From Candidatus Minthosoma equi (GTDB lineage Bacteria > Bacteroidota > Bacteroidia > Bacteroidales > Bacteroidaceae), in assembly GCA_018064885.1 (NCBI GenBank), contig JAGHUI010000016.1:1-39953 (forward strand): a stretch of 39,953 nucleotides of DNA, read 5' to 3'. Shown here piece after piece: positions 14,485 to 36,820 of this stretch. The first letter of the stretch is position 1, and each line of letters begins with the position of its first letter. Under the pieces are notes generated by a model. It did no database searches, was not told the DNA's origin, and saw only the letters and a list, made by a program, of their open reading frames with translations. Made by a program: the position numbers and the translations under genes.

Positions 14485-16647
14485 TTACTTTGTGCTCCAC
14501 TTTGGAAGTGAGAAGTACCAGTTCTTCTGGTCTTGAAGCTTGGCGAAGATGCTGGCATTGTAACCGTTGACAGCGGAGCTGTTGATGGTTGCTTTCTTTG
14601 TGCCACGGTTGGCAATCTTGTTGGCAAGCCAATCTGTTCCGTTGAAGCCTGATGCATTCTTGTGTTCGGCAATGCGGACAAGGTCTGTGAAGCGGTTGCC
14701 TTCGAACGCTGTCTCAAGTGCGAGCTCATCAACGATGATGTTCTCAACGGCATTGATGAGAGATTCGCGTGATGCTGTTGCTACGTTGACACCCTGTGCG
14801 AGAAGGAGCTTAGAGTAGTCGTAGTAAACAGAGTCACGAGTACCTGAGATGTTTGTTGTGATTTCGCCAGTATTGGATGTTGTCCATGAGCCTACACCTG
14901 TACCCTTGGCGTGAATGCCGTAAGTTGAGTTCCAGATTTCATCCTTGAAATTGAAGGCATTGTTGAACTGATTGATGAGGTCGCGGTCAGCTACATAGTA
15001 CATCTGATTTGAAGATGAGTATGCGATGGAGTCGTTTGCGATTGTGTCGCGAGCAACATTGTATCCGCTTGTTGATGATGTATATTCTGCGAGTTCTCCG
15101 TTCTCGTCGTAGCTCCAGTAGATGCCTGTCTCAATATCTTTATAAATATATGTGTCGGTTGCTGGACGATAGCATACGAGACGACCTTCTGCATCGTAGC
15201 GCTCTGGATAGCGATCTACAACACGTGGGATTGAGTACTGGTTGAGACCGTCCTTGAGGATTGCGAATGCAAACTCTGGGTAGCCTGCACGGTTGATAGC
15301 TTCGGCAAGACGGAGCCAGATGAGTGACTTGCGATAGATTGGGATGGCATAGTAGAACGAACCGCCGCGTGCAGCTTTGGCACAGAGTGGATAGCCCTTG
15401 CCTTCGTATTCGTACTTCTCTACAGAGATGATGTTGCGTCCATCCATGTTCTGGATGTAGGAAACAATTGGGCTTGTTGTTGTGCCTGTCCATCTAACGT
15501 ATGTCTGGTCGTTGCAAACATCGTCGAATGCCTCAGAAGGACCATACTGGCGCTGATAGTTGCGACTAACAGTAATGGCACCAGAAGGGTCGTATTCACC
15601 TGTTGACTCACCATCTTCGTCGAGAGTCTCTGAAGAAGACTGGCTTGATGATGGAGTGTAGCCATAGATGTCTGCTACGCGAGTGAGCATTGTGCCAAGA
15701 CCTGCATTGGCAGAACCAGGAATGGTTGTGATGACTTCGTTGGACGCTGCTGTATAGTTGTAAACCTGTCCCCATGCTCCCCAGCCATTGACAATCGTCG
15801 CCAAATTTAGATTGCCTTGATAAGGAAGGACATTAACATTAACGTACTGGAGCGGCATTGGAGCAACTTCCTTGTTGAGGAATGCCTTGTAGTGTTCGGC
15901 TGCCTTAACATAGTCGCTCACAGAACCGCCACGAAGGAGGTACATGTCGCCAAGGAGAACATTGATAGGGATGTAGCAGAGACGTGCTGAGATGTCTGTG
16001 AATCCGTTGTTCCAAGAGCCCCACTGGTTGGCAGGGTTTCCGTAAGAAGGATAGTTGGTGTCAACGAACTTGAGAAGTCCATCCTCAATTACCTTGTCAA
16101 CAAGGTTTTCCTTTGTTACCTGATTGTTGGCGTAGTTGAAGTTAGTGATGACAGAGATGTTGCTTACTGGCTCTGTGATGTATGGAACAGAACCGTAGTT
16201 CTTCACAAGCTGAAGGTAAGCCCAAGCGCGGATAGCCTTCACCTGTGCATACTCTGGAATCATGTACTTGATGTTTGACTTGATGGCAGATGTGTCGCAG
16301 TTGTAGATGTAGAAGTTACAATTGTTGATGACATTGTAGTAATCGCTAACCTGCAACATTGAGCATGTGCCGTCCTGCGGATTGTCGAAGTTTGAGATGG
16401 CAAAGAGCGTGTCGGTAGTGTAGTCTGTTGAGTTGACAAGATCACCGCGAATCTCGCCAAGGATAACCTGACGCTCTGCCACGTTCTGCATGCAGCGCAT
16501 GATGCCGAGGTAGGAGTAGAGTGTGTCCTGGGCATTGACGTAAGTCTTGTCGCCAGTATCTACGGTCATCATGTCTTCGCATGATGTTGCCACAAGACCT
16601 GTGGCAACAACTGATGCGATAGCTATGTTTCTAAATATATTCTTCAT
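14485..16647 (-). CDS. SusD/RagB-family nutrient-binding lipoprotein (second pair)
   Basis: This is a surface lipoprotein that captures substrate and acts as the lid of its SusC channel. Its 720 residues start with a lipoprotein signal (LVATSC, Cys23) followed by acidic residues, as in exported Bacteroidetes lipoproteins. The SusD-like helical (TPR) core is visible in IPEYAQVKAIRAWAYLQLVKNYG and YIPINVLLGDMYLLRGG, and the C-terminal conserved part in LETAFEGNRFTDLVRIAEHKN. It is longer than the common 500-600 residues. A Ser/acidic segment (about 328-352, TPSSSQSSSETLDEDGE) looks like a flexible loop. It follows SusC by 13 bp and is the last gene of the operon. Confidence 0.93.
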   Translation of the reverse strand: MKNIFRNIAIASVVATGLVATSCEDMMTVDTGDKTYVNAQDTLYSYLGIMRCMQNVAERQVILGEIRGDLVNSTDYTTDTLFAISNFDNPQDGTCSMLQVSDYYNVINNCNFYIYNCDTSAIKSNIKYMIPEYAQVKAIRAWAYLQLVKNYGSVPYITEPVSNISVITNFNYANNQVTKENLVDKVIEDGLLKFVDTNYPSYGNPANQWGSWNNGFTDISARLCYIPINVLLGDMYLLRGGSVSDYVKAAEHYKAFLNKEVAPMPLQYVNVNVLPYQGNLNLATIVNGWGAWGQVYNYTAASNEVITTIPGSANAGLGTMLTRVADIYGYTPSSSQSSSETLDEDGESTGEYDPSGAITVSRNYQRQYGPSEAFDDVCNDQTYVRWTGTTTSPIVSYIQNMDGRNIISVEKYEYEGKGYPLCAKAARGGSFYYAIPIYRKSLIWLRLAEAINRAGYPEFAFAILKDGLNQYSIPRVVDRYPERYDAEGRLVCYRPATDTYIYKDIETGIYWSYDENGELAEYTSSTSGYNVARDTIANDSIAYSSSNQMYYVADRDLINQFNNAFNFKDEIWNSTYGIHAKGTGVGSWTTSNTGEITTNISGTRDSVYYDYSKLLLAQGVNVATASRESLINAVENIIVDELALETAFEGNRFTDLVRIAEHKNASGFNGTDWLANKIANRGTKKATINSSAVNGYNASIFAKLQDQKNWYFSLPKWSTK

Positions 16648-16660
16648 GATTGTGATGAAA

Positions 16661-19600
16661 TTAGAGGTTGATCTTCACACCGATATTGAAGGAACGGTTG
16701 CTTGGGAGCAAGCCAGCATCGATGCCCTGATAGAGGACGCTGTTGCTGCAAGAGAACTCTGGATCCTTGCCTGTGTATTTGGTGATTGTGAAGAGGTTGT
16801 TTGCTTCGCCCCATACTGTGACACCCTGAATCCATGAGAGAGAGAGTGGAAGCTGATAAGAGAGGCGTACTTTCTTGAGCTTGAGGAATGATCCGTCTTC
16901 AATCCAACGGTCTGAGAAGCGCTCATTGTTAACCCAGAGGTCTGACTCCTGAGACATTGCACGAGGAACAGATGTAACCTGGCCTTCGCAAGTCCAGCGG
17001 TTTACTACTGCTGCTGTCTGATTGTAGAATGAGCTTCCTGTTTCGAGCTGTGAACGCTGGTAGTTGTAGATGTCACCTCCGATAGAGTACTTGAAGTTGA
17101 TGTCGAGACTCCAATTCTTGCAGAACTGAAGGTTTGTGTAGATTGTTCCGTAAACATCTGGATTTGGATCGCCAATGATTGTCTTGTCTGACTCATTGAT
17201 GATGCCGTCGCCATTGAGGTCAACGAAGCGGACATCGCCTGCCTGGAAGTTCTTGTATGGATTAGAAGTGATTCCTGTAGGATACTTGAGGTAGCCGTCT
17301 GCTGTTACTGTAGTTGCTGACTTAGCCTCTGCATCGCTTGCAAACACGCCTGCTGACTTGTAGCCGTAGAACACGCCTGCCGCATTGCCAACGGAAGTAA
17401 GGACTTCACCACCATAGATCTTAGTTGTGTAGCCGTTGTAGCCTGCAATATCGCTCTCGTTCTGTGGAAGAGAAGTGATCTTGTTCTTGTAGTGTCCCAT
17501 AGTGAGACCAACCTGCCACTTGACATCCTTTGTGTTCAAGAGGATAGCATTTGCCTTCACGTCAACACCGATGTTGCGGAGGGCACCATCGTTTGTGAAG
17601 TAGCCCTTAAGACCTGACATGTAGTTGACAGTCTTGTATGTGATGAGGTTATCTGTATTCTTCACATAGAATTCAGCACCTGCCTGAACACGGTTGTTGA
17701 GAAAAGAACCGTTGAGACCGATGTTCCAAGCGCGAGTCGTCTCCCACTGGATAGATGGATTCTCAATGTTCTCAAGCTGAAGACCTGTTGCTGTCTTGAG
17801 GTAAGTGTGTGACTTGAAATAAGTGCGAGAGAGTGAGTAGTCGAAGTTGTCGTTACCTGACTCGTCATAACCTGCATAAAGCTTGAGGTAGTTGACTGCA
17901 GGAGTCTTAGGGAACCACTTCTCGTTTGTAATAACCCAACCTGCCTGGAGACTTGGGAACACGCCCCACTCTACTCCAAACATCTTAATGCCTTCGTCGG
18001 TTGCCTTACCGAAACGTGATGATGTCTCTGTAGTGAGCGTACCTTCGAGGAAATAGATGTTATTGATGTTGTAGCGCGCATCAACATAGTATGCGAGATT
18101 CTTCCACTTATCCTCATTACCGTTAACGGAACGGAACTTGAGCGAGTTCTTCATGTCTGGCATGTTATCGTTACCTGAGCTATAACCTGACATGTAAGAA
18201 TCAGAGAAGCTGTTGCTTGTGAAACGCACACCACCGAAGACGTTGATGTTGTGGATGCCATAGCTGTTCTTCCAATCTGCACGGAACTCCTCATAGATAG
18301 AAGTTTCCTTTGAGAAGAGAGACTTGACGTGTGAAGTGACATCGCCGTAGCCTTCAAGGTTGTAGCGTGGAGTACCTGCCTCTGGAAGATAATACTTCTC
18401 GTTTGAGCGGTTGAGCTGATAAGCAAAACGGTTTGAAAGTGTGAGATTCTTGTTAATTTCCCACTTTGGCATGATGTTGAGATTGAACTGTGTCACTTCC
18501 TGACGGTTCTTGTTGTTGCCATCGCCATTCTCAAGAATCCAGTATGGGTTGGCAAGCGCTGTGTTTGAAGCATAGTCAGAAGCGAAGGCAAATGGATAGT
18601 TGTCATCGTCAATATACTTGCCTGCATACACAGATGAGAGATGAAGCTTTCCGTCATCGCCTGTATAGTAACCATACTTAGAGAGGAATGGTGACTGGAC
18701 AAGACCAAGTACGTTTGGAGAAGAGAGTGTGGAACTTGCATAACTCTCTGCCCAACCATTGTCACGAAGATTGTAAGTGAACTTTGAGTAGGAGAGGTCA
18801 AGCTGTGTGCTGACATTTTTCAAGAGCTTGATGTCAGTATTGAAACGAATGTTAAGACGATCAAACTGGTTCTTCTTAGCTGTTGACATTGAGTTTGCAT
18901 AACCGAGAGAGAGGTTATACATGGCAATGTCATCACCACCCTGAACATTAACCTTATAGTTCTGAGTGACAGCTGTGTTGTAGAGACCATTGCTCCAATC
19001 TGTGTCGTTGTGGTACATTGGATACCAGTAGTGAGCGCTGTTGTTGTTGAGGAACTTGATAGGCGTTGCAGCTGTGCTGTGCATCTGACCATACTCTGTC
19101 GTACCGATGAGGTCGGAGAGGTAGTTGCGATACTGCTCAGCATTCATCATTGATGGAGTGCCAGGAGTAGCTTCGAAACCGATGTTTGCGCTTACATTGA
19201 TACGTGTAGCCATTGAGTGACCACGCTTTGTATTGATGATGAGTACACCATTGCCGCCTCGCGCACCATAAAGTGATGTTCCATTCTTGAGAACCTCAAT
19301 GTTTTCAATATCCTCAGGATCAATGCCAGCAAGGACATTGTTGAAGAAGCCATCGTGGATTGTAGAGCGGTCAAGCTGAGGGTCAATAATCATGCCATCG
19401 AGAATGATGAGCGGCTGAGCATTGATGTTGAGCGAATTGAGACCGCGAACGAACATTGCCACGCCCTGACCGCGCATACCTGTGCGGTTGACTGTGTAGA
19501 TGTCGCCAGAAAGCTGATTGTCAACTTCCTCATCAAGAGTGATGGCGTTTGTATTTACAAGTGTAGCACCGTTCTTTGATGTCACACTTGTTTCTGTAGA

Positions 19601-20011
19601 ATACACCTTGTTGAATGCTGCCGAATAGAGTGCAACATCAGGAGCCTGATTGCCATCGAAAGCAACCTGAACGTCATTGTATTCTGGAACAGTAACGTAA
19701 AGTGAATTGACGAAAACTGGCACCTTGACAGTATATTTACCGTTTTCGTCTGTCATGGCAGAGTAGCGGCTGTTACCATAAGCCTGAACACGAGCACCGT
19801 CAACAGGAGTCTTTGTCGCAGCATCGTAAATGTAGCCGCTGACCTCCTTCATTTCATAGACTGGCTGCTTGCTCTCAACTTTCTTTACAGGCTTTGCAGC
19901 TGCTGATTCTTCTGGGGCATCCTGTGCCTGCACGCAAACGACTCCTGATAACATCATGAGACCAATGCTGGCACGAAGAATGCCTTGCTGAATATTAAAG
20001 TTGTTCTTCAT
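16661..20011 (-). CDS. SusC/RagA-family TonB-dependent outer-membrane transporter (second pair)
   Basis: This is a TonB-dependent barrel that imports the ligand bound by its SusD partner. The 1116 residues comprise a signal peptide (about 1-29), an Ala/Lys/Pro-rich spacer (about 30-50), a carboxypeptidase-regulatory-like beta domain (about 57-130, VSGYIYDAATKTPVDGA), a plug (about 150-275, with MFVRGLNSLNINAQPLIILDG and SLYGARGGNGVLIINTKRG) and a long barrel ending FNIGVKINL, a normal outer-membrane C-terminus. There is no STN domain, so it should not signal to an anti-sigma factor. It lies 25 bp after a FAS1 lipoprotein and 13 bp before its SusD. Confidence 0.95.
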   Translation of the reverse strand: MKNNFNIQQGILRASIGLMMLSGVVCVQAQDAPEESAAAKPVKKVESKQPVYEMKEVSGYIYDAATKTPVDGARVQAYGNSRYSAMTDENGKYTVKVPVFVNSLYVTVPEYNDVQVAFDGNQAPDVALYSAAFNKVYSTETSVTSKNGATLVNTNAITLDEEVDNQLSGDIYTVNRTGMRGQGVAMFVRGLNSLNINAQPLIILDGMIIDPQLDRSTIHDGFFNNVLAGIDPEDIENIEVLKNGTSLYGARGGNGVLIINTKRGHSMATRINVSANIGFEATPGTPSMMNAEQYRNYLSDLIGTTEYGQMHSTAATPIKFLNNNSAHYWYPMYHNDTDWSNGLYNTAVTQNYKVNVQGGDDIAMYNLSLGYANSMSTAKKNQFDRLNIRFNTDIKLLKNVSTQLDLSYSKFTYNLRDNGWAESYASSTLSSPNVLGLVQSPFLSKYGYYTGDDGKLHLSSVYAGKYIDDDNYPFAFASDYASNTALANPYWILENGDGNNKNRQEVTQFNLNIMPKWEINKNLTLSNRFAYQLNRSNEKYYLPEAGTPRYNLEGYGDVTSHVKSLFSKETSIYEEFRADWKNSYGIHNINVFGGVRFTSNSFSDSYMSGYSSGNDNMPDMKNSLKFRSVNGNEDKWKNLAYYVDARYNINNIYFLEGTLTTETSSRFGKATDEGIKMFGVEWGVFPSLQAGWVITNEKWFPKTPAVNYLKLYAGYDESGNDNFDYSLSRTYFKSHTYLKTATGLQLENIENPSIQWETTRAWNIGLNGSFLNNRVQAGAEFYVKNTDNLITYKTVNYMSGLKGYFTNDGALRNIGVDVKANAILLNTKDVKWQVGLTMGHYKNKITSLPQNESDIAGYNGYTTKIYGGEVLTSVGNAAGVFYGYKSAGVFASDAEAKSATTVTADGYLKYPTGITSNPYKNFQAGDVRFVDLNGDGIINESDKTIIGDPNPDVYGTIYTNLQFCKNWSLDINFKYSIGGDIYNYQRSQLETGSSFYNQTAAVVNRWTCEGQVTSVPRAMSQESDLWVNNERFSDRWIEDGSFLKLKKVRLSYQLPLSLSWIQGVTVWGEANNLFTITKYTGKDPEFSCSNSVLYQGIDAGLLPSNRSFNIGVKINL

Positions 20012-20036: not shown

Positions 20037-21908
20037 TTATTCATCGTGACCTTTTGCCTTGAAGATAATGGCATTAACCCAGAGCTCACGGCAATAGTAC
20101 ACCTTCTCAGAGGAAGTAATGTTGCTCTTGAGCTGGATGAGCGGATAAGCCTGCTTCAATCCCATGTAGCTTACAGGAAACTCAAAGTCTTTGGCAATAC
20201 AGATAGTGTCGGTAAAGTCGATCTCACCCTTCTCGTTGAGGTGTGGAGGACGATTGACAAAGTAGTTGCTGCCAAACAATTCAGAGCCCTTTGCATCAAG
20301 CATATCTTCGTTAGGATTCTTCAAAGTGAAGTTGCTCTGACGCTTATCCTCTGTGTCATAGTCGATGTAAGCACGGAACTTGTTAGGCAAGTTGTAATCT
20401 GTATTGTAGCCGATGACAACATAGATATCATACTTGCAAGAAAGCACATCGTCAATCTTGAAGAAAGCACCAGGGTTGGAAGTCGCATTCTTATTACTCA
20501 TAACAAGATATGTGTAATTGAAAGTAGAGTCGCTGCTTGCCACCACCTCGCCATCAACTGTCAACATAGGCTTGACGTAGGTCTGACGCAAAGTGCTTGC
20601 AGCACACTGCTGGTCAACAGAGTTGACAGCCATCGTCGCATCCGCATTGATGTTTGGAGCATAAACGGTAGAAGGGTACTTGAACTCATCAACGATGTAA
20701 GCATAACCGTTGCTTGTCTCGATAGGCTCAGCATTGCCAAACATATCGGCGAAGTTATCTACCTCAAGCGTCTCATCCCATGGGTTCGTGATGTTGAGTG
20801 TGCCAGTCTTCTTATACGTCATGCCCGATGCTGTGAGCAATGAATCCTTGCGAGCATCAGCAGCCTTGATGTCGGCAATGCTTGTCACAGGAATCTGACG
20901 GTACTGCCAGTTAGCATTGAACACAAGATCCTTCGCAATGCCACTCTTGGCATAGTAATCGTTCAGAGAGTCAAGCTCAGCTTCGGTGAAGTTAGTCTCA
21001 GCACCAGTGATAGTGGTGTCTGCACCAGCCTCTGTCTGAGTCTTCACATCCTGCTTGTACGATGCCTTGAAATGGAAATACTTCTTAGTCTTCTTCAGAG
21101 TCTCTCTCCACGCATTGTTTGTCGGAATGATCATCACATAGTTGCTGTCCTCGCTTGCCAGCTGAGCACCCATAGTGCGGCTGCTGTAGGAATTATAGAC
21201 GTATGTGACAGAGTCAACCCAAGTGACCTTGCCATCAATAGTAGGACCAGGGGTAGAAGCAAACTCATCAAACTGATGCTTCTCGAAACTCTTGATGAAA
21301 GCATTGATAGAATCCAGCTGACCTGAACGAGAAGACAAGAACTCATAGAGGTTAGGCTGATAAGCCGCAGGAGCCTTAGTTATGTGGAGCACACCATTGG
21401 AGGCACCGATGTTAGACTTTGTGATGTCCTGTCCTTTGAATGTGCAAGACTTGTTGTTCAGCCAAGCAGCCTTAGCATTGAAGAGCTCCAGCTTGATGGA
21501 GTCAGAGCCATTGACAACATGAGAATAGCGAGTCATGTTGTTGCGGATAAGTTCCTTCTCAACCTTGTAGATAGAATCACGAATACCTGTCGCAAGCAGA
21601 CTCTTATAATATGAATAGTTGAAAGAGTCATTCACAGGAGCCCAGACAGTGAAAGTCTGATTGCTGTTGAAGATGTCGGCATAGGTCTCAGGAGTCGTCT
21701 TGATCTCTGTGGAAGAGTAATAGACACTCTGCAAGATGTCGGCATACTGAGAGAGAGAAGGCTCGCTCTTGATGTTCTCCCAGATTGTAGCCTTGCCAAG
21801 GACATCGGAATTTATGTCGAAATGGTCGTCGGAGCAGGCTGTGATGCCGGCAGCAAGAGCCGCCGTCATCAGTGAACCTGTGAACCATTTAGTTATTTTT
21901 GAATTCAT
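20037..21908 (-). CDS. Fasciclin (FAS1) domain lipoprotein, 623 residues
   Basis: This is probably a surface-exposed binding lipoprotein. The lipobox is GITAC (Cys25) followed by SDD, an acidic surface-export pattern. Two FAS1-type regions are visible: about 40-185 (FTVWAPVNDSF and GVLHITKAP) and about 195-430 (VMIIPTNNAW and AYIVDEFKYPS). A C-terminal beta-rich module (about 440-623) has KYDIYVVIGYN and YYCRELWVNAIIF. FAS1 domains mediate adhesion or ligand binding in many organisms. Here the ligand is unknown. The gene is 63 bp after another FAS1 gene and 25 bp before the second SusC, which suggests that it is an accessory binder of that channel. Confidence 0.85.
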   Translation of the reverse strand: MNSKITKWFTGSLMTAALAAGITACSDDHFDINSDVLGKATIWENIKSEPSLSQYADILQSVYYSSTEIKTTPETYADIFNSNQTFTVWAPVNDSFNYSYYKSLLATGIRDSIYKVEKELIRNNMTRYSHVVNGSDSIKLELFNAKAAWLNNKSCTFKGQDITKSNIGASNGVLHITKAPAAYQPNLYEFLSSRSGQLDSINAFIKSFEKHQFDEFASTPGPTIDGKVTWVDSVTYVYNSYSSRTMGAQLASEDSNYVMIIPTNNAWRETLKKTKKYFHFKASYKQDVKTQTEAGADTTITGAETNFTEAELDSLNDYYAKSGIAKDLVFNANWQYRQIPVTSIADIKAADARKDSLLTASGMTYKKTGTLNITNPWDETLEVDNFADMFGNAEPIETSNGYAYIVDEFKYPSTVYAPNINADATMAVNSVDQQCAASTLRQTYVKPMLTVDGEVVASSDSTFNYTYLVMSNKNATSNPGAFFKIDDVLSCKYDIYVVIGYNTDYNLPNKFRAYIDYDTEDKRQSNFTLKNPNEDMLDAKGSELFGSNYFVNRPPHLNEKGEIDFTDTICIAKDFEFPVSYMGLKQAYPLIQLKSNITSSEKVYYCRELWVNAIIFKAKGHDE

Positions 21909-21971: not shown

Positions 21972-24068
21972 TTACCAGATGTCTTCGTTGTTCTCTCCTG
22001 CATAAACAGACTTTGGAACAAGTTCGAGATAATCGTAGAAGAACTCTGAATTATCTTTTGAGAGTACAGACTTGAAACGGATGTAATATGTCTGTCCAGC
22101 CTCAAGCATACCTGTGAAGATAATCTTACGGAGGTTATCCTGCGAGTCACGACCAGTACCGTTGCTCACCTGAATGTACTTAGAACCCTTCATGAAGCCC
22201 ATGTTGCGCATAGTCTTCTGGTTCTCGTAGAGTGCAGTTGAGTCGGAACCAACTGGTGTGATTGTGCTCTCTGCAACCCAACCTGTTGATGAAGGGTTTG
22301 TGCCAGAGTTACGAAGGTCAATTGGAATACCGATGGCTGGAAGGTTGTTTGGATTCTTACCAAGATAAATCTGTGCCATGCCTCGGTTGTTGTTAGCCCA
22401 TACACCATAACGGATTTCGTAAGTACCAGTGTAAGGTACTGGAGGAAGCTTCATAGTGAAGTCGTACTGACCTTGAATGTTGAACTCATCGTTCTGGTAG
22501 TCAAGCCATCCAGTAGTTGAGTTGCCCCAGCTCTGGTTTGGAAGATACTGGAAGAGAGTCTCATCTGTCATTGCAACAACATTGTCAAGATATTCGAGGT
22601 TGAAGATCCAGTTGCCTACACGGTTCTGACGCACGTTGTTTGTGACAAACTCAGGGAAGAGAGAAGTGATGTCATAGCGGAGACGCTCATTGAGCACCTT
22701 GTTTGGAACATCAGCATCCCAGATGAGAATGTCATCAATTGGATAGATAGAACCGTTGAGGGCATCATTGTTGTAAGTACCGTTTGTTGGGTTTACCTTG
22801 ATGCCAGGAATCTTGATTTCAGATGTACGCTCCTTGTAGTTAGTCTGATTGTAGATAGACTGACGGTTGATGCGACGCTGGAGTTCACCGTTGACACGGC
22901 AACCTGTAATCTTTACAGAACGGCGCTGAACGCCGATTGTCTCCCAGTATTCCCATACGTTAACATAGAACTGGTTTGCTGTGCGTGACTTCATCATATC
23001 ACCGCTACAACCATACTCGTTAGCGAATGTCACCATATTATTATATGAGAGACGTTCTGGCAGAACGTGGTAAGCAACGAACTGGTTGAGCCAGTTGTAA
23101 TCGTTCTCGTAGTCATTCTCCCAACTGGTAGGAATGCCACAGCTTGTGTCATCGCCATAGTTATTGTGCTCCTTCACATAATCCTTGAGAGTCGTCTCAA
23201 AATCTTTTTCTGTGATACCATGTACATTGAACACAGAGTCAGTCTCAACAAAGATAGTGAAACCCTTGTAGCGATGCTCTGGATACCATGCGCTGAAGGA
23301 ACCCTTAGGAGTCTGAGTACCACGGATATCGTCATACTTATCCTCCCATGCCTGATCCTTATACTCGGTGAGCTTGTCGGCAATGCCTGTAATCTCAAGC
23401 AGTTTGCCAAAAATTTGAGTATTCTCCGTAGCCATGATAAGCTCAGCCACAGAAGCGTTAGAAGGAGAAAGCACCTTGTCGATAGTATGAATATAACCAT
23501 TCTCAACCTCAATATCGCTATCAATGATCTTAGAATTGACATTCACATAAGTGATAGTGTTACGCATCTCATCAACACCGTATGAGATAGAAATGTAACG
23601 GTCGTTCATGTTGGTGAGGGCAAGAGCACCTTCCTCAAAAGAAGTTGAAGCAAAAGCCTCCTGTTCACCATTCTCGATGATAGAGTTGAAAACGATAGAT
23701 TCTGCTACAGAATCAGGAATCTCGTTGATATTTGTTGAAGACACTTCGCCAATAAGGAGAAGCGAGTCAAGATAATATGCAATGGCTTCGTTTGTAGGCG
23801 CAAAGCAAGTATAGTTGCCTCGTGCATCAAGCAATTCCTTCATTGTTGATGAAGAACGCTTGCTTGGGTGAACCTTGCCAAGAATTGTGAGGTAACTGCC
23901 GAATGTCTCAGGATTATTCTCGAAATGGTCAACCATCATCTCACCTGTGAAAGTGTAGAGAGAGCTGTCATCGATTTTCTCCGTACAGGAATTCAGAGTT
24001 ACTGCAGCTGCAGCACCAACGAGAAGTGCAGCTCCGCAATAGTTCTTTATATTATTAATGATTTTCAT
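21972..24068 (-). CDS. Fasciclin (FAS1) domain lipoprotein, 698 residues
   Basis: The lipoprotein signal ends TLNSC (Cys28), followed by TEKIDD. The first FAS1 domain spans about 40-200, with the classic H1-like FAPTNEAI and H2-like GYIHTIDKVL. A second FAS1-like region (about 210-470) includes FTIFVETDSVF and YPIDDILIW. The C-terminal module (about 530-698) has the beta-strand patterns TYEIRYGVWANNNRGMAQIYL and TYYIRFKSVLS, resembling a ligand-binding beta-sandwich. The similar layout of the 623-residue neighbour suggests that the two are diverged paralogues. It lies 6 bp after the first SusD, so it is tightly linked to that pair. Confidence 0.87.
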   Translation of the reverse strand: MKIINNIKNYCGAALLVGAAAAVTLNSCTEKIDDSSLYTFTGEMMVDHFENNPETFGSYLTILGKVHPSKRSSSTMKELLDARGNYTCFAPTNEAIAYYLDSLLLIGEVSSTNINEIPDSVAESIVFNSIIENGEQEAFASTSFEEGALALTNMNDRYISISYGVDEMRNTITYVNVNSKIIDSDIEVENGYIHTIDKVLSPSNASVAELIMATENTQIFGKLLEITGIADKLTEYKDQAWEDKYDDIRGTQTPKGSFSAWYPEHRYKGFTIFVETDSVFNVHGITEKDFETTLKDYVKEHNNYGDDTSCGIPTSWENDYENDYNWLNQFVAYHVLPERLSYNNMVTFANEYGCSGDMMKSRTANQFYVNVWEYWETIGVQRRSVKITGCRVNGELQRRINRQSIYNQTNYKERTSEIKIPGIKVNPTNGTYNNDALNGSIYPIDDILIWDADVPNKVLNERLRYDITSLFPEFVTNNVRQNRVGNWIFNLEYLDNVVAMTDETLFQYLPNQSWGNSTTGWLDYQNDEFNIQGQYDFTMKLPPVPYTGTYEIRYGVWANNNRGMAQIYLGKNPNNLPAIGIPIDLRNSGTNPSSTGWVAESTITPVGSDSTALYENQKTMRNMGFMKGSKYIQVSNGTGRDSQDNLRKIIFTGMLEAGQTYYIRFKSVLSKDNSEFFYDYLELVPKSVYAGENNEDIW

Positions 24069-24074
24069 TGTTCC

Positions 24075-28900: not shown

Positions 28901-29381
28901 TGTCGAGACCTGCGATCTTACCCTGAAGGGCTTCGTCGGCAGATGCGAAGGAAAGACCTTCAACATCGTCCATGCTCATAGTCTGCTGAGCAACAGAAAT
29001 TTCCTTCAATGGGATGGACATACCGTTCTGCTTCACCATTGGCTTTGCCTTTACGACAACTTCGGTGAGCTGAGTGTTGTCCTGCAACTTAATGTTGAAC
29101 TTTGTTGTTGTGCCGATAACCTGACTCCATGTCTTGTAGCCGACGTAGCTGACTACGAGCTTGTCCTTAGGATTCTTGATAACCATGGTGAAGTTACCAT
29201 TGATATCGGTAACGGCAGCTTCGACAATACGGTTGTTGTTGTCTCGCTCAACAACGTTTGCCATCATGATACCGCCAAGATCATCATATACAGTACCTGA
29301 AATACGATGTCCTTGTGCGAATGCTGAACTTACACAGAAGAACAGCACTACGGATGTGAGGATGAATTTAATTCTATTCAT
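25974..29381 (-). CDS. SusC/RagA-family TonB-dependent outer-membrane transporter (first pair)
   Basis: This is a canonical SusC of 1135 residues. A signal peptide (about 1-23, ending AFAQ) precedes a carboxypeptidase-regulatory-like domain (about 27-100, ISGTVYDDLGG) and a TonB-box-like LTEVVVKA (about 105-112). The plug (about 130-265) carries GSAEPLIVVDGN and STAIWGSRGANGVLEITTRRG, and the barrel ends FTLSVNVGF with a terminal aromatic. There is no STN domain. It is more canonical than the second SusC in the operon and the two are clearly not recent duplicates. It lies 20 bp after the large FAS1 gene and 12 bp before its SusD. Confidence 0.97.
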   Translation of the reverse strand: MNRIKFILTSVVLFFCVSSAFAQGHRISGTVYDDLGGIMMANVVERDNNNRIVEAAVTDINGNFTMVIKNPKDKLVVSYVGYKTWSQVIGTTTKFNIKLQDNTQLTEVVVKAKPMVKQNGMSIPLKEISVAQQTMSMDDVEGLSFASADEALQGKIAGLDIIANSGNLGSGTSMRMRGVSTINGSAEPLIVVDGNIFDLPDNATDIDFEDLDNEEQFATLLSVSTEDIKEIKVLKDAASTAIWGSRGANGVLEITTRRGARGKTKINFSYKFSGSWMPSGLNMLSGDGYTMMLKEAYFNPKQNTATSNMVELNYDQAYPVQYYNFNKNTDWVDAVNQFGAKHEYGITLSGGGEKATFRISGNYTNQSGTIIKQNLDQLTTRVVLDYFVSDRITFSTNFALAYTDNHRNWDGGSTASILGKAYNAMPNMSIYEYDQFGNLTGDYYKMLPTTPVAYAGGDNNYSSYYLSDMKSLGNPVAIAHQAFNNQSTYRINPQFNLQYKLMGKDADTHQLNLNAEVYMDIFNKSENSYYPNSLTSDSWSAGVNKTTNDEYKSLAFTNREKLIFIPHINNENFTMNFLGQFEFTTGSSTSQYIAKTGTPTGISSSVAEAYNQSTSSGTGEWRNMAFLGMGHFGFFDGRYAFTVTVRRDGSTQFGKGSKWGTFPGVSFIWNINQEPFFEKLHVENVISRLAFRPSWGRVGRTPGQEYLMYNSYNDAGVYGSGIYKYPAIQAGNLRLTNIKWETVTSWNLGANLNLFNDLLQFDFNYYNKQTDNLLMPNVGIPNSTGYSNLAKRNVGGLRNRGWELYMNTGKFLKKGKFSMQVNFNVAQNINTITSMDESVLSSMNGEYSYNNAEYLKRIQVGNAVGSIYGFHYKGVYAYDYDHSGYTELSANTYGDNTAAAAAARGDNATVPVARDADGQILYDSKGNPLHMYFNYGGIGYEFKGGDVIYEDVNSDGQINELDIVYLGNSNPKMNGGFGLKFNYGAWALNLSFNYRWGNKIANLARLNNESMRSNINQSQAVAWRWRKNGDVTEIPRAMNSRIGASYNSLASDRYVERGDFLRLQYAQLSYTVPQKTVKDWGLQSLRFNLSANNLFCLTKYTGVDPEVSYGTWGVCEDKSKTPRAKSFTLSVNVGF

Positions 29382-29401: not shown

Positions 29402-32392
29402 TTATTCTGAAAGTTTATATGATTTGAGATAGTTACGAGCCTTTGCTGCTGATGACCAGTCAGAATCGTAGCGGCCATTAGCGTAAGTCTTGTAATCAAG
29501 AACACCATCAATGCCATGAATTACAGCTGATGAAGAAGATGTGAGTGTGTTCTGGATAGCGGAAGCCTTGCCTGCTGTGATGTAGTCGCGAACAATGATG
29601 TTCTTGTCTGAAGTGATATTGCGAGTGTGACCAGCAACATCCTTTACTGTAAGAGAACCATTGCCATTAGAAGAAACATTCACCTTAATGTAAACACCTG
29701 TCTCAGCATTTACTGTTGCAGTTTCGTAAGGAGTAGTGGCAATAGCAGGAGTGTCGGCAAAGATGCTGTTATCCTGGAAGTGATACTTCACGAAGTTCAC
29801 AATAGCTGTAATCATTGCAAGTGCCTTCGCATTGCGCGCTTCTTCCTGCTCACTTGTGAGGTCTGTCTTCTGGTCGTCATCAAGGTCGAGTTCGAGGAAG
29901 TCACGAACATCCTGCCATGTTGGCAAACCGAGTTTCTCTGCTTCTTCCATTGCACTGTTAGTAGGAACATAGACAGTGTAGTTATAGTTATTGAAGAAAC
30001 GAACATTTGTTGCAGAGTTAACCAAATTACCAGTTACGTGGTCGTAGCAAGGGAGTCCCTTCTGGTCAACGAAAATGTTGTACTTGTTCTGTTCTGATGT
30101 TGTCTTTATGCCAATCTCCTTGAGAACTTCCTGATCTGTCTGGCAAAGCTCAAAGAACTTGCTGAAGTTTGGATTGTTATACATTGCAGAATAAACAGAT
30201 TCGATAGTTGGAACCATTGGCTGGGTGAGCATGTAAGCAAAACCGTTACCGTAGCCAGTACTCTGTTTTGACTTATCGTCAAAGCCGATTACGTCACATT
30301 CCTGCTTGTTATCAATCTGCCATCCCCCCTGTACTGTCATGCCTGTCTTGCGCTTTTCAGCATCTTCAACACGGATAACGGAGTAGTTCTTTGAGATGAA
30401 ATAGTGCTGATTGCACTCAACACCTGTAGAAGTCTCATCAATGCCTGTGCTTTCGCTCTTATCCTCATGGATAATGGTATGAGTCTCAAGCATATCCTTC
30501 AAACGGTTGCCGAAGCAAGTCTCAGAGACATTTTCATTAGAGATAAGGTCTCCAATCTGACCTTGACGTGTTGTGATATCGTAGTTGTACTCGTAGGATG
30601 CCGCCTTAGGTTTCTTGTTCTTATCATCCCATGTATAGAGATAAGCACGTCCCTTGAGCACAGCACCAGAACCGCTGTTTGTCACTTCAGGAGCATAGAA
30701 TGAAAGTGGGTCAACATACCAGAAATTGTCATCATTTGGAACAAAGAATGAGAAACGAGAGCTCATTGCCAAAAGATAAGCATAGTAGCTGGTAGGAATA
30801 CCGCCAAGAGCATCGCTCTGAATTGCCCAGTTGAAAATGCGCTTGTCTGTCTCAACGTATGCTGGCGCAGAAACGGCTGCATATTCGGCAGGAGTTGTAA
30901 CTTCGTTCATGAGGTAGATAACACCGTTGTTGGCAATGAGAGTGCCGAGCACATTGTTACGATGATAATCATTATCCTCATTGAACATAGCATCTTGAGC
31001 AGAGTTCTTGATTGTCTCAAACTTGCTTGGGACAGTATTGTTGAAAGACTCCTTCATAAGGTTATTGAGAAGAGCGCGGATTGTCTGGCGAGGAATCTGG
31101 TCAATAGCCTGATAAACCTTTGTGAGATCTGTCTCATTCTCTGTAATCTTATCTGCGAGATCTGGGGCATATGCTTTCACAAGGAATTTACCACCACCGC
31201 CACCAGTTTCGCCGTCCTTCTTATTATCATCGCCGAAGAAGTATTTCATGAGCATAGCATCCGTTGGACAGAAGATAGCAGCCATATCCTGCTCCTTAGC
31301 CTTGCGGTCATCAGCAGTATATGTGTTCCATCCTGGGTCGAAAGGAAGCGGCTTGTTTGAGCTTGCATCGAACACAGTGTTACCAGATGGGTTGGCAATA
31401 GGCTCTGTACCCTTGTCAGAGTAAAGCGTTGCATTGCCCTGTGAACGCATAGAGAAATATCTCTTCTCGAACACAGAGTCAACGGCATTGCCATAAATTA
31501 GGCGATAGCGCTCTGTAAGGTCTGCATTGTAGAATGGTGCAGAGAAACGGTCGAGCATGTGAGAGAAGATGTTTGTCTTGCCATTTGTACGAAGCACTTC
31601 TGCCATGTTCTGTGGAGTGATGAGAACTTTGTCAAGCACATTCACATAACCATTCTGGCAAGTAACATCCTGCTCAAGCACCTTGCTGTCATAAATAAAA
31701 GCATCCTTCTTGGTTCTTTCGTGACCAGTGATGATGCGGAAATCCTCGTCTGTGATGTTGTAGTTAGCCATCTGGGTAGCGAGGAAGTGAGTCATCATTG
31801 GAGTAGTAGCATCAAGAGCAAGGTAGATACCCTTGTCATTGTTGCGGAAGCGAGCCCAATAATCCTGCTCATCAGCGTTGTAACTGATAGGGAGATCAGC
31901 CGCAAAGAAATGAGTCACAGAGTCAGTGACGTCAGAAGCAGTCTCACGACGGAGACACTGTCCCTTGTTAGGTTCATCGTTAGTACCTGTTCCGGCAGCT
32001 GTAGATGACATCATCTCAAGCAGATAAGCATTATTAACCATTGCGGAGTTCAGAAGCAGTTTCTTCTGAGCCAAAGAAAGCCCATCATAGCTGCGAACAC
32101 CCCAGGCATTGTTAGCGTAGAATTGTGAGAAGGCATCGTCGTTAGCAACGAACAGCGTCTTCGAACCCGTACGTGACAACACCTCTTTGTAGCCAAGATC
32201 GTCAATCAGCTTGACGAAATTCTTGTAATTGCCCTTCGCTTCCAAAGACTCATAGATGCTCTTGCCAAGCCACTCAGGGTCACCATCGTCCCATTTGTAG
32301 TCGTCAGCGCAAGAATAAGTCATTCCGCAAACGGCAATCAGGAAAAATGCTTTCGAAGCATAATCTCCTAATTTACAAAAACGTTTGTTCAT
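29402..32392 (-). CDS. Large four-domain fasciclin (FAS1) lipoprotein
   Basis: This lipoprotein has 996 residues and a lipobox MTYSC (Cys28) followed by ADDYKWDD. Four FAS1-like segments are visible by their H1-type motifs: TLFVANDDAF (about 79), MAAIFCPTDAML (about 370), FSFFVPNDDNF (about 547) and YTVYVPTNSAM (about 840). Matching H2-type motifs include GYVNVLDKVL (about 248), GVIYLMNEVTT (about 490) and IHGIDGVLDY near the end. A glycine run (GGGGG, about 397-401) forms a flexible linker. Its length and beads-on-a-string layout suggest an extended surface adhesin or substrate-capture arm. It lies between the hydrolase gene (87 bp) and the first SusC (20 bp). Confidence 0.87.
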   Translation of the reverse strand: MNKRFCKLGDYASKAFFLIAVCGMTYSCADDYKWDDGDPEWLGKSIYESLEAKGNYKNFVKLIDDLGYKEVLSRTGSKTLFVANDDAFSQFYANNAWGVRSYDGLSLAQKKLLLNSAMVNNAYLLEMMSSTAAGTGTNDEPNKGQCLRRETASDVTDSVTHFFAADLPISYNADEQDYWARFRNNDKGIYLALDATTPMMTHFLATQMANYNITDEDFRIITGHERTKKDAFIYDSKVLEQDVTCQNGYVNVLDKVLITPQNMAEVLRTNGKTNIFSHMLDRFSAPFYNADLTERYRLIYGNAVDSVFEKRYFSMRSQGNATLYSDKGTEPIANPSGNTVFDASSNKPLPFDPGWNTYTADDRKAKEQDMAAIFCPTDAMLMKYFFGDDNKKDGETGGGGGKFLVKAYAPDLADKITENETDLTKVYQAIDQIPRQTIRALLNNLMKESFNNTVPSKFETIKNSAQDAMFNEDNDYHRNNVLGTLIANNGVIYLMNEVTTPAEYAAVSAPAYVETDKRIFNWAIQSDALGGIPTSYYAYLLAMSSRFSFFVPNDDNFWYVDPLSFYAPEVTNSGSGAVLKGRAYLYTWDDKNKKPKAASYEYNYDITTRQGQIGDLISNENVSETCFGNRLKDMLETHTIIHEDKSESTGIDETSTGVECNQHYFISKNYSVIRVEDAEKRKTGMTVQGGWQIDNKQECDVIGFDDKSKQSTGYGNGFAYMLTQPMVPTIESVYSAMYNNPNFSKFFELCQTDQEVLKEIGIKTTSEQNKYNIFVDQKGLPCYDHVTGNLVNSATNVRFFNNYNYTVYVPTNSAMEEAEKLGLPTWQDVRDFLELDLDDDQKTDLTSEQEEARNAKALAMITAIVNFVKYHFQDNSIFADTPAIATTPYETATVNAETGVYIKVNVSSNGNGSLTVKDVAGHTRNITSDKNIIVRDYITAGKASAIQNTLTSSSSAVIHGIDGVLDYKTYANGRYDSDWSSAAKARNYLKSYKLSE

Positions 32393-32479: not shown

Positions 32480-35287
32480 TTATTTCACTCTCACGACAGC
32501 AGCCTGCTTGCCAGTTGAAGTGACTATGTAGAGTCCTGCTGGCTGTGCAGCTTTTGGATTCACCTTGCTTCCTGCCATTGTATAGATGCTGTAAGGCACA
32601 TCATCAAGGACAGAAATAACACCATTCTCAACCTTCACACGAAGCTGACTGCCATTTGCCGCAGCCTCAGAGTCAATGATGGCAGATGGATCGGATGGAA
32701 CGGATGCTCCCTCAGCACGCTCTGCAATGACAACCCAGCCGAAGACATCAGCAAAGTCAGAACTGCTCTTGTTGTCTTTTGTAGAACTTGAGGTATCTAC
32801 CATTCTCTTCACATTTGCACCAGTAACCATACCATTGTGCTCACCTTCATCAGATGAAGTTTTGTCACCATGACGGCGGAGCAATGTCGCACTATGGTAG
32901 TTGCGTGTCTGAAGACCACCGAAAAGAAGAGGATTCTTGAAATACAGCTGTTCTTCGCCATTGACAAAGTTCTGGGCGCGGTATGTTGATCCGTAAAGTC
33001 CTTCCTCGCAACGTCCTGCAGCAATAATAAGATCATTAGCCTCATCAAGATAAGCAATACCAGGAGTGATGGCGAAGTAGCAGACATTCTGGTCGAGGGA
33101 AATGGAAAGGTTGAAGCCTTCCTCATATTCGATGAACAGCTTGAAGCCTTCGTTAGTGACATCCCATGTGCTGATGCTGATTGGGCGACTCTTCAAGCTT
33201 GCATTGCGAATCTCAGCAATCACAACAGGAGTGACTCCTTTTGGGAATGGTGTGCGGAACTTCACTTCCACTGTGTCCTTTGATGCTTCCACAACACCAA
33301 CCTCTGTCTGCAAGTCGCCATACTTCTCGTTTGAATTGTCTTTGAGAGCAAGGAAAGGTATCTCTTCTGTGGCAGTAAGCTTTGTCTCTGAGTTGCTCTG
33401 CTTTGCCCAAGGAAGAATTGCGTAAGTGAATTTCTTGTTAGTGACACCAGTGAGAAGGTTGCCAGGATAAAGCTTTGTGTTCTTGTTAGTACAAAGTCCC
33501 ATGAAAACAGCTGGTGTCTCAGCAAATGCTTCTGAATAGTCAGTAGCAACAGCCTCTGTGCCTGTCATGAATAGCTTGCCATACTGATAAGCATCTGTTC
33601 CTCTTGAAGAACCGACAGTGACACTTGTCTCATCAGAATACTTAGCAGTCTTGCTGCCGATTGGGTAAGCTGCGACTCTATAATATGTAGCACCCGCCTC
33701 TGGCTGATCTGTAAAGGTGTATTTCACAACCTTATCGTTCATATCCTTCAAAGGAACATTTGCCAGCCAAGTGAATTTGCTTTCCCCTTGCTTCTTAGCT
33801 TCCACTACAAGCGAGTCAAGCATATCACCATTGGCGTCGTTCCATGTGAGGGTGAATGTTCCCTTTGTCTTATTGTAAGTTCCTGCAAGGTCAGTAGGAG
33901 CATTGTAAACAACTTTTGGCACATACTCATTCTTTCTCTTGAAAGCAAGACCTGTTTCCATTGTAGAATAGTACTTGCCAAGAGTACTCATCTTGCCATC
34001 CTTTATAATCTTTGAGCAGTTAGCCTCGCTGTTCCAATAGAAATAGCGCTCCACCCTATCGTTAGCATTCAGAACTTCAAGAATAGGCTTTGTTCCATCA
34101 TAATTCTTGCTCCAGTTGCCCTCGTAATCACCACGATTGCCGACAGCAAAAATTCCGTTATTATTCCAGCTTGCGCCCCATACCCACTCTGAAATCCAGA
34201 TTGGACGGCCGTTGCCATAGTTGTCGCTGTACCAAGTGAGGTTATTGAAAGTGCCAGCCTGCCAGTAGCAGTGCAGATCAAGGATGTCACATCGCCAGCC
34301 ACGCTTGTCAATCTCCTCAATAAATGTCTTAAGGTGGTTCATAGAGCCATCATGTGAAGACTCAGAACAGAGGCGCATTCCTGTACGCATCAGGTTCTGC
34401 CAGTTGTTAAGCACAGTCTCCACATCCTGAGGATGATCGTCTGCCGAGTTGCCAGGCTCATTGTTTGTCTTCATGTGGCAAGAACCTGTCACGCTTCCGC
34501 AAGTGGATGCTGATGGCCAATCCTCATAAATATGGTTTGGAACCCATTCCACATCAGGAAGAAGGCTTGCATTGCCCTGCGCCCAGTCAAAGCAAGAAGT
34601 TGTGTTCAGAGCATCGTTTGTTGCAGCAGAAGTGTCGTGAATACCAGCCTTTGAGGCATCCCACCATTTGAAGAGACGGTATGAAGAAACACGACCGCTC
34701 ATGTTTGTTGGGAGATTCATTTCAAGGTCTTCCGCATCAGCAATGAAGCAGCGGCTGTAGCCCCAGCCAGAAGAACCGAGGGCGAAAGTCACCATGTAGC
34801 CTCTCTTCAGCTTGAACGACTTGAAATTATTGTTGAGTTCCTTTTCTGTCAATGACTTCATGAAACCGCTGTAGCTTCCCTCTGTATAATTGTTGTACGA
34901 CTCACCCTCAAAGTTTGACTCAGTATAGCAAGTAAGAGGCATGAAATCCTTGCCGTATGGCATAATGATAGCACCGCGGTTATACATCTTCACCTGACAG
35001 TTCACGCCATCGGCAGCCTGCTCGCCATTGATATAGATATTACCCATCCAGTTCTTGATAACCTTGCTTGGCTTCACCTTCTGGAAAATCAGCACAGCAT
35101 GCTCTGTGTTCTGGATATCCACGCTGCCAGTTGTGGCAAATGGAGTCTCACCAGTGATAGTGTAGTCAATATCAGTAGTCAGAGCAACAGCATCTGTCAC
35201 CTGACCTACAGACTTTTTCTCGTTGGCAGCATTTGCAGAAAGCGCCAACATTGCAATAAGCATTAAAGCAAAAAAATTTATTTTCAT
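32480..35287 (-). CDS. Exported GH128-like (Asl1-type) glycoside hydrolase with C-terminal sorting-like tail
   Basis: This is a predicted secreted glycosidase of 935 residues. The signal peptide is about 1-20. An N-terminal beta-rich region (about 35-195) precedes a TIM-barrel core with the retaining-enzyme landmarks TNNEPGN (E277, probable acid/base), DLHCYW (about 337-342) and IWISEWVWG (E367, probable nucleophile). This resembles the Asl1/GH128 catalytic fold, whose known members act on beta-1,3-glucan. A fibronectin-III-like domain lies at about 463-560. A beta-rich C-terminal region follows and ends PAGLYIVTSTGKQAAVVRVK, a type IX secretion-like tail. The substrate here is not certain. 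The gene is 14 bp after the M64 peptidase gene. Confidence 0.78.
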   Translation of the reverse strand: MKINFFALMLIAMLALSANAANEKKSVGQVTDAVALTTDIDYTITGETPFATTGSVDIQNTEHAVLIFQKVKPSKVIKNWMGNIYINGEQAADGVNCQVKMYNRGAIIMPYGKDFMPLTCYTESNFEGESYNNYTEGSYSGFMKSLTEKELNNNFKSFKLKRGYMVTFALGSSGWGYSRCFIADAEDLEMNLPTNMSGRVSSYRLFKWWDASKAGIHDTSAATNDALNTTSCFDWAQGNASLLPDVEWVPNHIYEDWPSASTCGSVTGSCHMKTNNEPGNSADDHPQDVETVLNNWQNLMRTGMRLCSESSHDGSMNHLKTFIEEIDKRGWRCDILDLHCYWQAGTFNNLTWYSDNYGNGRPIWISEWVWGASWNNNGIFAVGNRGDYEGNWSKNYDGTKPILEVLNANDRVERYFYWNSEANCSKIIKDGKMSTLGKYYSTMETGLAFKRKNEYVPKVVYNAPTDLAGTYNKTKGTFTLTWNDANGDMLDSLVVEAKKQGESKFTWLANVPLKDMNDKVVKYTFTDQPEAGATYYRVAAYPIGSKTAKYSDETSVTVGSSRGTDAYQYGKLFMTGTEAVATDYSEAFAETPAVFMGLCTNKNTKLYPGNLLTGVTNKKFTYAILPWAKQSNSETKLTATEEIPFLALKDNSNEKYGDLQTEVGVVEASKDTVEVKFRTPFPKGVTPVVIAEIRNASLKSRPISISTWDVTNEGFKLFIEYEEGFNLSISLDQNVCYFAITPGIAYLDEANDLIIAAGRCEEGLYGSTYRAQNFVNGEEQLYFKNPLLFGGLQTRNYHSATLLRRHGDKTSSDEGEHNGMVTGANVKRMVDTSSSTKDNKSSSDFADVFGWVVIAERAEGASVPSDPSAIIDSEAAANGSQLRVKVENGVISVLDDVPYSIYTMAGSKVNPKAAQPAGLYIVTSTGKQAAVVRVK

Positions 35288-35301: not shown

Positions 35302-36750
35302 TTATTTAGCAGTATAGAAATCTGTGATTCTCTGAATAGCCCTCGTACATACAGGACAGAAGTCTTGCACCTCATTGATCTTCATGCGGCATTCCTGTGC
35401 AGGACGATAGCATCCCTTGGTCTGATAACCCGCACCCTCAAACACACCAACAACCTGGGTGCATTTGTTCAAAGCTTCCATTGCCTTTGCATCGTTCTTA
35501 TCAATCATCCTGAAGTTTGGAACCTTTGGATCAAGAGGAGTAGGAATAGGAGTCTTTTTTGGCATAAGGTCAGCCCACTTGCTCTGGAAATCCTTGAGAG
35601 TTGTGATGTTTGGTTCCCAAGGCTCTGTGTCAGCAGGATACCATTCTGTGTCCATATCATCGTAAGCATACTCATCGGCAAGACCGCCATAGCTGTGACC
35701 GAACTCATGAACAAACACTTCCTTGAAAGTAGGATGATCGCTTGTAGAGAAAGTCACCTGATTGTAAATGCCACCACCACCGTAAGTGTCGCTATTCACA
35801 AGCACCATAATGTGCTCAAAAGGCACACCGCTAAGCAGGTCGTAAATCTTATGCATATCCTGCGACATAAGGTAACGGTCGCTATAGAATGTGTCGTAAT
35901 GGCTGCTGGCTGGAGTGTTCTTCCAGATGCCCTTATGAGGAACAGAAGGACCTGCTCCCTGACTTGGCGCAGCAACGGCAACGACATTGAATCGGTTTTT
36001 CAAACTCTTGAAAGGTTCCCAAGCAAACAGAGCATCGACAGCACGCTGGCAGTCGTTGTAGAACTTGCCCATCTGAGCCTCCGTGTAACCTTCTGCCACA
36101 ATTGCCAAATCGATGCAATCTGTGATGTTCACGCCTTGGAAAGGATCATATTCCGTAGGGATGTAGTTTCTTCCAGAACCATTGCGAACCTTGTCATCTG
36201 CTCTGCCAGCAATAGTATTGCCATCTGGATTGCCCTTCCAAACATAGAAAAAAGGAATGCCGTTGTCCCCAATTCTTCTGATGAGAATATCCTTAGGGTC
36301 AACGGTATGAGTGAGCTCGGAAGTCACCTTGTTGTGATTATCAGTAAGAGAAATGGTGACATCAACTGGAGCCTTTGGGAAAGGAATATTGTAAGAAGTT
36401 TCAAAAGCCTTGTTCACCTGCTTTGCCTCGTCATACTGCTGCCACTCCTGAAAGAGCGTTGAGAATGTCCACACATAGATAACTTCCTGAGAAACATGAT
36501 CCTTGACCGTCAGTTGTCCATTGCCATTCAGGAACTTTTCTGCCAGGCGGCTCTTGCGTCCAGCCCATCTGTCTTGCTTCTTCAAGTCTTCAAGATAGAT
36601 GTGCTGCTCATGGTCGTTGCCAGCAAAAATATAGTCAATACGGAGTGTTGCGTCCTCGAAATACTTATCGAAAGACTGCGCAAATGATTTATTAGTAGAG
36701 AAAAGTAAGGTTAATGCGAAGATTGATACTATCGCAAAGAAACGTTTCAT
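35302..36750 (-). CDS. Exported M64-family zinc metallopeptidase
   Basis: This is an IgA-peptidase-type (M64) zinc endopeptidase of 482 residues. The signal peptide is about 1-24 (ending SFAQ), the N-terminal beta domain (M64_N-like) about 25-160 and the catalytic domain about 205-480. The zinc motif is HEFGHSYGGLADEY, giving H348, E349 and H352 with D359 as the likely third ligand. The DLAIVAEGYTEAQM and NSDTYGGGGIYN segments are typical of the family. Cysteines near the end (CRMKINEVQDFCPVC) may form disulfides. Some family members cut IgA; others have unknown targets, so the IgA role should not be assumed. It is the first gene of the 22-kb operon, with a promoter directly upstream. Confidence 0.92.
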   Translation of the reverse strand: MKRFFAIVSIFALTLLFSTNKSFAQSFDKYFEDATLRIDYIFAGNDHEQHIYLEDLKKQDRWAGRKSRLAEKFLNGNGQLTVKDHVSQEVIYVWTFSTLFQEWQQYDEAKQVNKAFETSYNIPFPKAPVDVTISLTDNHNKVTSELTHTVDPKDILIRRIGDNGIPFFYVWKGNPDGNTIAGRADDKVRNGSGRNYIPTEYDPFQGVNITDCIDLAIVAEGYTEAQMGKFYNDCQRAVDALFAWEPFKSLKNRFNVVAVAAPSQGAGPSVPHKGIWKNTPASSHYDTFYSDRYLMSQDMHKIYDLLSGVPFEHIMVLVNSDTYGGGGIYNQVTFSTSDHPTFKEVFVHEFGHSYGGLADEYAYDDMDTEWYPADTEPWEPNITTLKDFQSKWADLMPKKTPIPTPLDPKVPNFRMIDKNDAKAMEALNKCTQVVGVFEGAGYQTKGCYRPAQECRMKINEVQDFCPVCTRAIQRITDFYTAK

Positions 36751-36789
36751 TGTAGGTTTTGTAGATTAGTAGTTATTGCAATTGCTTTG

Positions 36790-36820
36790 CAAAAATACAA
36801 AATAATCTAAAAAACTACAA
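36790..36820 (-). promoter_or_regulatory. Promoter of the M64-GH-FAS1-SusCD operon
   Basis: On the minus strand TATTTTTG (36797-36790) matches TAnnTTTG. TTG (36820-36818) lies 20 bases upstream, the preferred spacing. The M64 start is 39 bp past the -7 box. Just upstream, a perfect AT-rich palindrome, ATAATTAT at 36828-36835 and 36838-36845, could be an activator site. No comparable promoter is obvious in the later gaps. Confidence 0.65.

Follow-up and report, generated by a model that had tools for sequence, protein, structure and literature searches.

A conserved gene block of two SusC/SusD pairs and three FAS1 lipoproteins in Bacteroidaceae, a probable glycan capture-and-import platform with varying neighboring enzymes

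The closest described counterparts of the locus presented here are PULs of the Sus type. Classical Sus-like PULs contain adjacent SusC and SusD genes, genes for extra surface lipoproteins and a neighboring glycosidase gene, as far as the available part of the source describes them (PMC11351036). In the cluster xusABCD of Prevotella bryantii two SusC/SusD pairs stand together, of which XusB and XusD are xylan-binding SusD homologs and XusA and XusC are the transporters; the accessible text presents this cluster as feeding in the oligomers of one polymer (PMC8002723).

The locus of this study is part of a stretch of 39,953 nucleotides of Candidatus Minthosoma equi, termed the window in the following. 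An initial annotation of this DNA had described nine co-directional genes with short gaps between one promoter and one terminator and had assigned them to two SusC/SusD pairs, three FAS1 proteins, an M64 peptidase and a GH128-like hydrolase. Order, gaps and ends were recovered for the ORFs running from 36750 down to 14485, and the gene identities were confirmed by Pfam, NCBIfam, profile and fold comparisons. The features are as follows.

36881..39823, minus strand: uvrA, upstream neighbor outside the system (TIGR00630, 1097.9 bits)
36790..36820, minus strand: promoter of the Bacteroidales type, TTG-N20-TATTTTTG, before M64
35302..36750, minus strand: M64 metallopeptidase (M64_N and Peptidase_M64) with signal peptide (Pfam, PDB match, motif)
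32480..35287, minus strand: GH128 subgroup-I-like enzyme (GH), predicted to be secreted, with signal peptide (profile, Foldseek, alignment)
29402..32392, minus strand: FAS_a, FAS1 lipoprotein of 996 aa, lipobox C28 (Pfam, alignment, model)
25974..29381, minus strand: SusC1, TonB-dependent SusC/RagA transporter (Pfam, TIGR04056, PDB matches)
24075..25961, minus strand: SusD1, SusD/RagB lipoprotein (Pfam, NCBIfam)
21972..24068, minus strand: FAS_b, FAS1 lipoprotein, lipobox C28; C-terminal part conserved and without Pfam family
20037..21908, minus strand: FAS_c, FAS1 lipoprotein, lipobox C25; C-terminal part without Pfam family
16661..20011, minus strand: SusC2, second SusC/RagA transporter, of a lineage apart from SusC1 (NCBIfam, distances)
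14485..16647, minus strand: SusD2, divergent SusD-like lipoprotein (Pfam, distances)
14384..14422, minus strand: terminator stem-loop after SusD2, 17-pair stem with T-rich tail

We numbered M64 as gene 1, GH as gene 2 and the block FAS_a-SusC1-SusD1-FAS_b-FAS_c-SusC2-SusD2 as genes 3-9. From M64 to SusD2 the nine minus-strand ORFs are separated by 14, 87, 20, 12, 6, 63, 25 and 13 bp, and uvrA is located 130 bp upstream of M64 on the same strand. The promoter follows what we take to be the Bacteroidales consensus. The scan reported the terminator stem on the plus strand; the coding minus strand likewise has a T-rich tail after the stem. Rfam yielded no matches at gathering scores, and neither an HTCS nor an ECF sigma/anti-sigma pair was found among the 20 window proteins scanned, a set that leaves out the ORFs at 11196-11753 and 11801-12592. 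Two pairs of adjacent SusC and SusD homologs and a carbohydrate-active enzyme, encoded by the GH128-like gene directly before FAS_a, characterize the locus, by gene content, as a PUL.

Two further genes of the window deserve mention. At 337-2766 a BspA-type leucine-rich-repeat protein of 809 aa is encoded. At 9023-9616, beside mreB, lies a 197-aa ORF of the IMP-cyclohydrolase type, which is one piece of a split PurH; another contig (C78) carries the remainder of the AICARFT domain. Both pieces occur in 14 of 16 genomes of the genus and one piece each in the other two. Among ten genomes from the order but from other families, nine gave a full-length match, one of them with a second partial match, and one gave none.

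For the analysis of the gene order 60 stretches were fetched, 20 each by GH, by FAS_a orthologs or near relatives, and by FAS_a paralogs. FAS_a is present in 49 of them and absent from 11, one of which is a 3-kb contig. Conserved synteny had been set beforehand as a test, and it was passed: all 49 FAS_a-bearing loci keep the SusCD/FAS1 order of genes 3-9 as far as each stretch runs, with SusD2 reached by only a part of them, two block genes visible in L149 and four in L114. Thirty-eight loci show a prefix of the full order, nine are without FAS_b at its usual place (in L155 it is displaced to the front of FAS_a) and two are special cases, namely L156 with SusC1 in two ORFs and L159 with GH behind the full block order. 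Loci with FAS_b in place have median gaps of 11-27 bp within the block; in those without it there, the median gap between SusD1 and FAS_c is 84 bp. Pairwise distances of the block proteins correlate with each other at r = 0.94-0.99 and with those of GH at 0.68-0.81, the latter from fewer and closer loci and all of them without an unrelated gene as control. Stronger evidence of inheritance as a whole block comes from the lineages of the Sus proteins. With labels assigned according to which window protein matched best, SusC1 and SusC2 separate cleanly with 0 of 85 misplaced and a support of 1.0, which shows that whole blocks were duplicated. SusD1 and SusD2, labeled in the same way, separate as well (0 of 55 misplaced, only six of these being SusD2). 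At least four blocks occur in a single genome (G065, loci L152-L155). At E up to 1e-20, FAS_a matches occur in 258 of the 399 family genomes, distributed over 16 of 30 genera, and a sample of 296 genomes of the phylum gave seven matches, the window's own and six partial ones. Judged by these comparisons, the window carries, as genes 3-9, one copy of a fixed, multi-copy block which is widespread in the family.

All three FAS1 proteins exceed the Pfam cut-off of 22 for PF02469, with 44.4, 55.1 and 27.6 bits. Their lipobox cysteines (C28, C28 and C25) are invariant and would therefore place them on the cell surface. FAS_a possibly comprises four FAS1-like domains, in a model of moderate confidence (pLDDT 73). 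For the C-terminal parts of FAS_b and FAS_c neither a Pfam match nor a convincing PDB sequence match was obtained. Both SusC proteins pass TIGR04056, and SusD2 falls just under both Pfam cut-offs (26.8 vs 27 and 23.0 vs 23.1). We consider it fairly probable that the block is a platform for the capture and import of glycans which works with exchangeable enzymes and which, in the window, serves a polymer containing beta-1,3-glucan. The three FAS1 lipoproteins would replace the other surface glycan-binding proteins of classical PULs and may hold the polymer, bridge the two different SusCD transporters, or both. SusC1D1 and SusC2D2 would import oligomers, possibly of two product classes. Peptide import in the manner of RagAB was also considered as a reading of the block; the best PDB matches of SusC1 by phmmer, 8aa4 and 5t3r, rank ahead of RagA and are titled only "SusC homolog", which is not decisive. 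The best structural relatives of the FAS1 proteins are TGFBIp and periostin, adhesive proteins of the matrix, and they speak for FAS1 proteins whose main function is adhesion of the cell to particles of plant or fungal origin, import being secondary. However, in 49 loci these proteins flank and separate the two SusCD pairs at fixed places, which seems to exceed what adhesion needs, and we regard this role as distinctly unlikely.

The enzyme in front of the block, with 935 aa, has no Pfam glycosidase match of its own. Glyco_hydro_cc is matched by 22 of 42 GH relatives at E up to 0.1, and the profile of these 42 relatives matches the GH128 structure 6uaq at E 1.3e-13. With the predicted structure of GH (pLDDT 88) the first Foldseek match was GH128 subgroup I, represented by 6uas and 6uaq (6uas: E 1.4e-10, TMt 0.76), so that the fold of this subgroup is found in the model. 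E277 and E367, invariant in all 42 relatives, correspond in the alignment to positions 96 and 193 of the 6uaq chain, which an offset of 6 would turn into E102 and E199; the title of PDB entry 6uas names an E199A mutant, and E102 we take to be the other catalytic residue of GH128. Both catalytic glutamates of subgroup I have counterparts in this alignment. Taken together, sequence and model make GH a probable endo-beta-1,3-glucanase, GH128 subgroup-I-like. An H-type-lectin-like domain is located at 673-722 and matched in 35 of the 42 relatives; beta-gamma-crystallin-like and FN3-like parts were indicated by Foldseek (3hzb, 3mpc), a search that gives no position. The C-terminal tail resembles those of T9SS cargo. 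The type A sorting domain TIGR04183 was not matched in the window's GH and was matched in two of the 42 relatives at E up to 0.1; the genome encodes SprA, a T9SS component, and contains nine TIGR04183 matches elsewhere. The type IX system is the putative export route of GH. In the window, GH would cut beta-1,3-glucan outside the cell. Since the neighboring enzyme is GH128-like, the likely substrate is a wall polymer containing beta-1,3-glucan, such as callose or fungal and yeast glucan in the herbivore gut.

The relatives of GH differ in several respects. Seven of them (L038, L040, L041, L045, L047, L083, L098) end, by eye, in dockerin-like repeats and not in a T9SS-like tail, and Pfam detects dockerin in eight of 42. 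In ten loci of the genus with the block behind GH, GH shares 33-63% identity with the window vs 74-83% for SusC1 and is thus far more variable. In a Prevotella MAG a rhamnogalacturonan lyase (PL11-type, PF21348; L102:5360-9943) directly precedes a longer GH128-like form, which hints at pectin-rich material.

The coupling of GH and block was assessed in 45 genomes of the genus including the window, counted by hand and with FAS_a orthologs defined by 55% identity or more. GH is present in 43 of them. Among the 27 genomes with a FAS_a ortholog, the block stands behind GH in 19 and not in five, and contig ends leave three undecidable. GH and FAS_a are separated by a further, diverged GH128-like gene in three of the 19 (G029, G031 with locus L114, and G037) and also in locus L087. 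Three of the five have the block clearly apart, with about 9-17 kb seen behind GH without it (G034, G025, G030); in the other two the contig continues for about 1 kb beyond GH, and the block is preceded by other ORFs (G041, G004). Sixteen of the 43 GH genomes are without a FAS_a ortholog, 12 of them with paralogs and four without any FAS_a. Because of these five of 24 decidable genomes and these 16 of 43, the coupling is loose. The gap between GH and FAS_a, 87 bp in the window, amounts to 144-606 bp (median 278) in ten relatives, and one tight nine-gene unit was rejected on this gap and on the blocks away from GH. What stands of the initial annotation is the conserved surface system, in which FAS1 proteins are integrated into the SusCD units. 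Its single nine-gene machine is not supported, and the nine genes probably do not work as one unit.

The separate blocks, the GH genomes without an orthologous block and the weaker distance correlations of GH would also fit an independent importer which landed behind M64 and GH, GH serving another purpose and the block substrate being unrelated to beta-1,3-glucan. We judge this rather unlikely, as GH accompanies the same kind of block elsewhere. Among 46 genomes outside the genus, any FAS_a match was found in 12 of 13 genomes with GH vs 11 of 33 without (p = 6e-4) and, by genus, in 9/9 vs 7/20 (p = 1e-3), p values which are rough because species are not independent. In 15 of 80 named loci GH precedes a diverged block, with ORFs in between in L049, L081 and L085, and in L159 it lies on the 3' side. 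Related arrangements include a GH43/GH32-like gene preceding the diverged GH-FAS_a neighborhood of L057, with four more loci looking alike by their starts, and relatives of SusC2-SusD2 that are located upstream of the longer GH form and separated from it by one or two ORFs (L091, L099, L100, L101). We therefore retain the glycan platform, with a loosely attached GH, as the preferred reading.

Gene 1 belongs to the M64 peptidases, with PF09471 at 222.9 bits, M64_N in addition, the zinc motif HEFGHSYGGLADE and a match to PDB 3p1v/4df9 at E about 1e-133. The initial annotation had assumed a mixed protein-glycan target, and M64, GH and both SusCD/FAS1 units may indeed be pictured as acting jointly on a glycoprotein or a proteoglycan-like polymer: the spacing of 14 and 87 bp and the one good promoter before M64 agree with this, as does the genus, in which M64 (at least 70% identity) occurs in 36 of 45 genomes including the window and is directly followed by GH in 35 of the 36. 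Co-transcription of M64 and GH is likely in the genus for the latter reason. However, the pair of uvrA and M64 is followed by neither GH nor block in four genomes (G002, G062, G064, G087, with 6.5, 5.2, 5.6 and 1.2 kb of sequence available after M64), and GH stands beside uvrA without M64 in two (G008, G040). M64 was found in 117 of 150 relatives, and outside the genus (46 genomes) it shows no association with GH (Fisher p = 1). Around the 20 paralog blocks the fetched stretches gave no M64 match, nor did those around the further FAS_a blocks, whose 5' sides cover about 6 kb or less and three of which begin at GH and so could not show it. The adjacency of uvrA and M64 itself is not family-wide, being limited in other genera to G062, G064 and G087 (27 genomes searched for uvrA), and in G086 the two genes are 3.5 kb apart. 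We hold joint action on a mixed target to be very unlikely; the assumption was not borne out, and M64 as a functional part of the machine was rejected on the four pairs without GH or block and on the missing association outside the genus. By its genomic context M64 is probably a neighbor of uvrA and incidental to the import platform.

Some copies of the block have neither M64 nor GH in front. The 5' neighbors of the paralog blocks were scanned except for those of L152, L159, L160, L162, L164, L166, L169 and L171. They comprise GH67 (L153), GH43 (L161, L163 and L165; L162 looks alike), GH92 with GH95 (L168), DUF5695 with GH127 (L157) and a PD40 protein (L170), and in L154 and L158 large proteins without Pfam match and with T9SS-like ends. 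A recognised glycosidase is thus encoded directly or nearly directly 5' of about 7 of 20 paralog blocks. The flanks of another block set (41 proteins) hold varied families, many of the housekeeping type, and GH2, GH5 and a sulfatase are among the 25 of 63 families listed. In the platform reading, the chains would be cut by an enzyme which is exchangeable and not part of the block, its gene lying next to the block or elsewhere. It is conceivable, and we put it forward tentatively, that the block is a general "chassis" of glycan uptake, a single surface assembly of two non-equivalent SusCD pairs connected by three FAS1 lipoproteins, which is copied as a whole inside genomes and gains new targets by swapping of the neighboring exported enzyme.

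The titles of 56 of the 80 named GH loci are of the herbivore-gut type, 41 naming a ruminant, a horse or a rumen sample and 15 bearing RUG, presumably for rumen uncultured genome; 24 titles are silent. These titles, together with the presence of FAS_a in 258 of the 399 family genomes, suggest that sugars of plant or fungal walls may commonly be taken up through the platform in the herbivore gut. If this holds true, a transporter/FAS1 unit that stays constant while its enzymes change would uncouple the imported material from the material being cut, and bacterial FAS1 domains would gain a testable role in nutrient capture. No FAS1-SusCD platform is described among the literature matches listed, whose coverage leaves out most subscription papers and makes this weak evidence of absence.

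Compared with AmGH128_I, the GH128 subgroup I enzyme of PDB entries 6uaq and 6uas, GH has the same fold and both catalytic glutamates; it differs by an identity of only 22% and by its additional lectin-like, FN3-like and crystallin-like parts. Likened by gene content, the block shares two SusCD pairs per cluster with xusABCD, whereas the available text on that cluster names no FAS1 proteins and the block has three, with neighbor enzymes varying by copy (PMC8002723). From classical Sus-like PULs, as the accessible part of the source presents them, the block is distinguished by FAS1 proteins in place of other glycan-binding lipoproteins and by enzymes that lie outside the conserved unit (PMC11351036). 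The locus is a PUL of unusual design and not a new kind of system, tandem SusCD pairs being already known.
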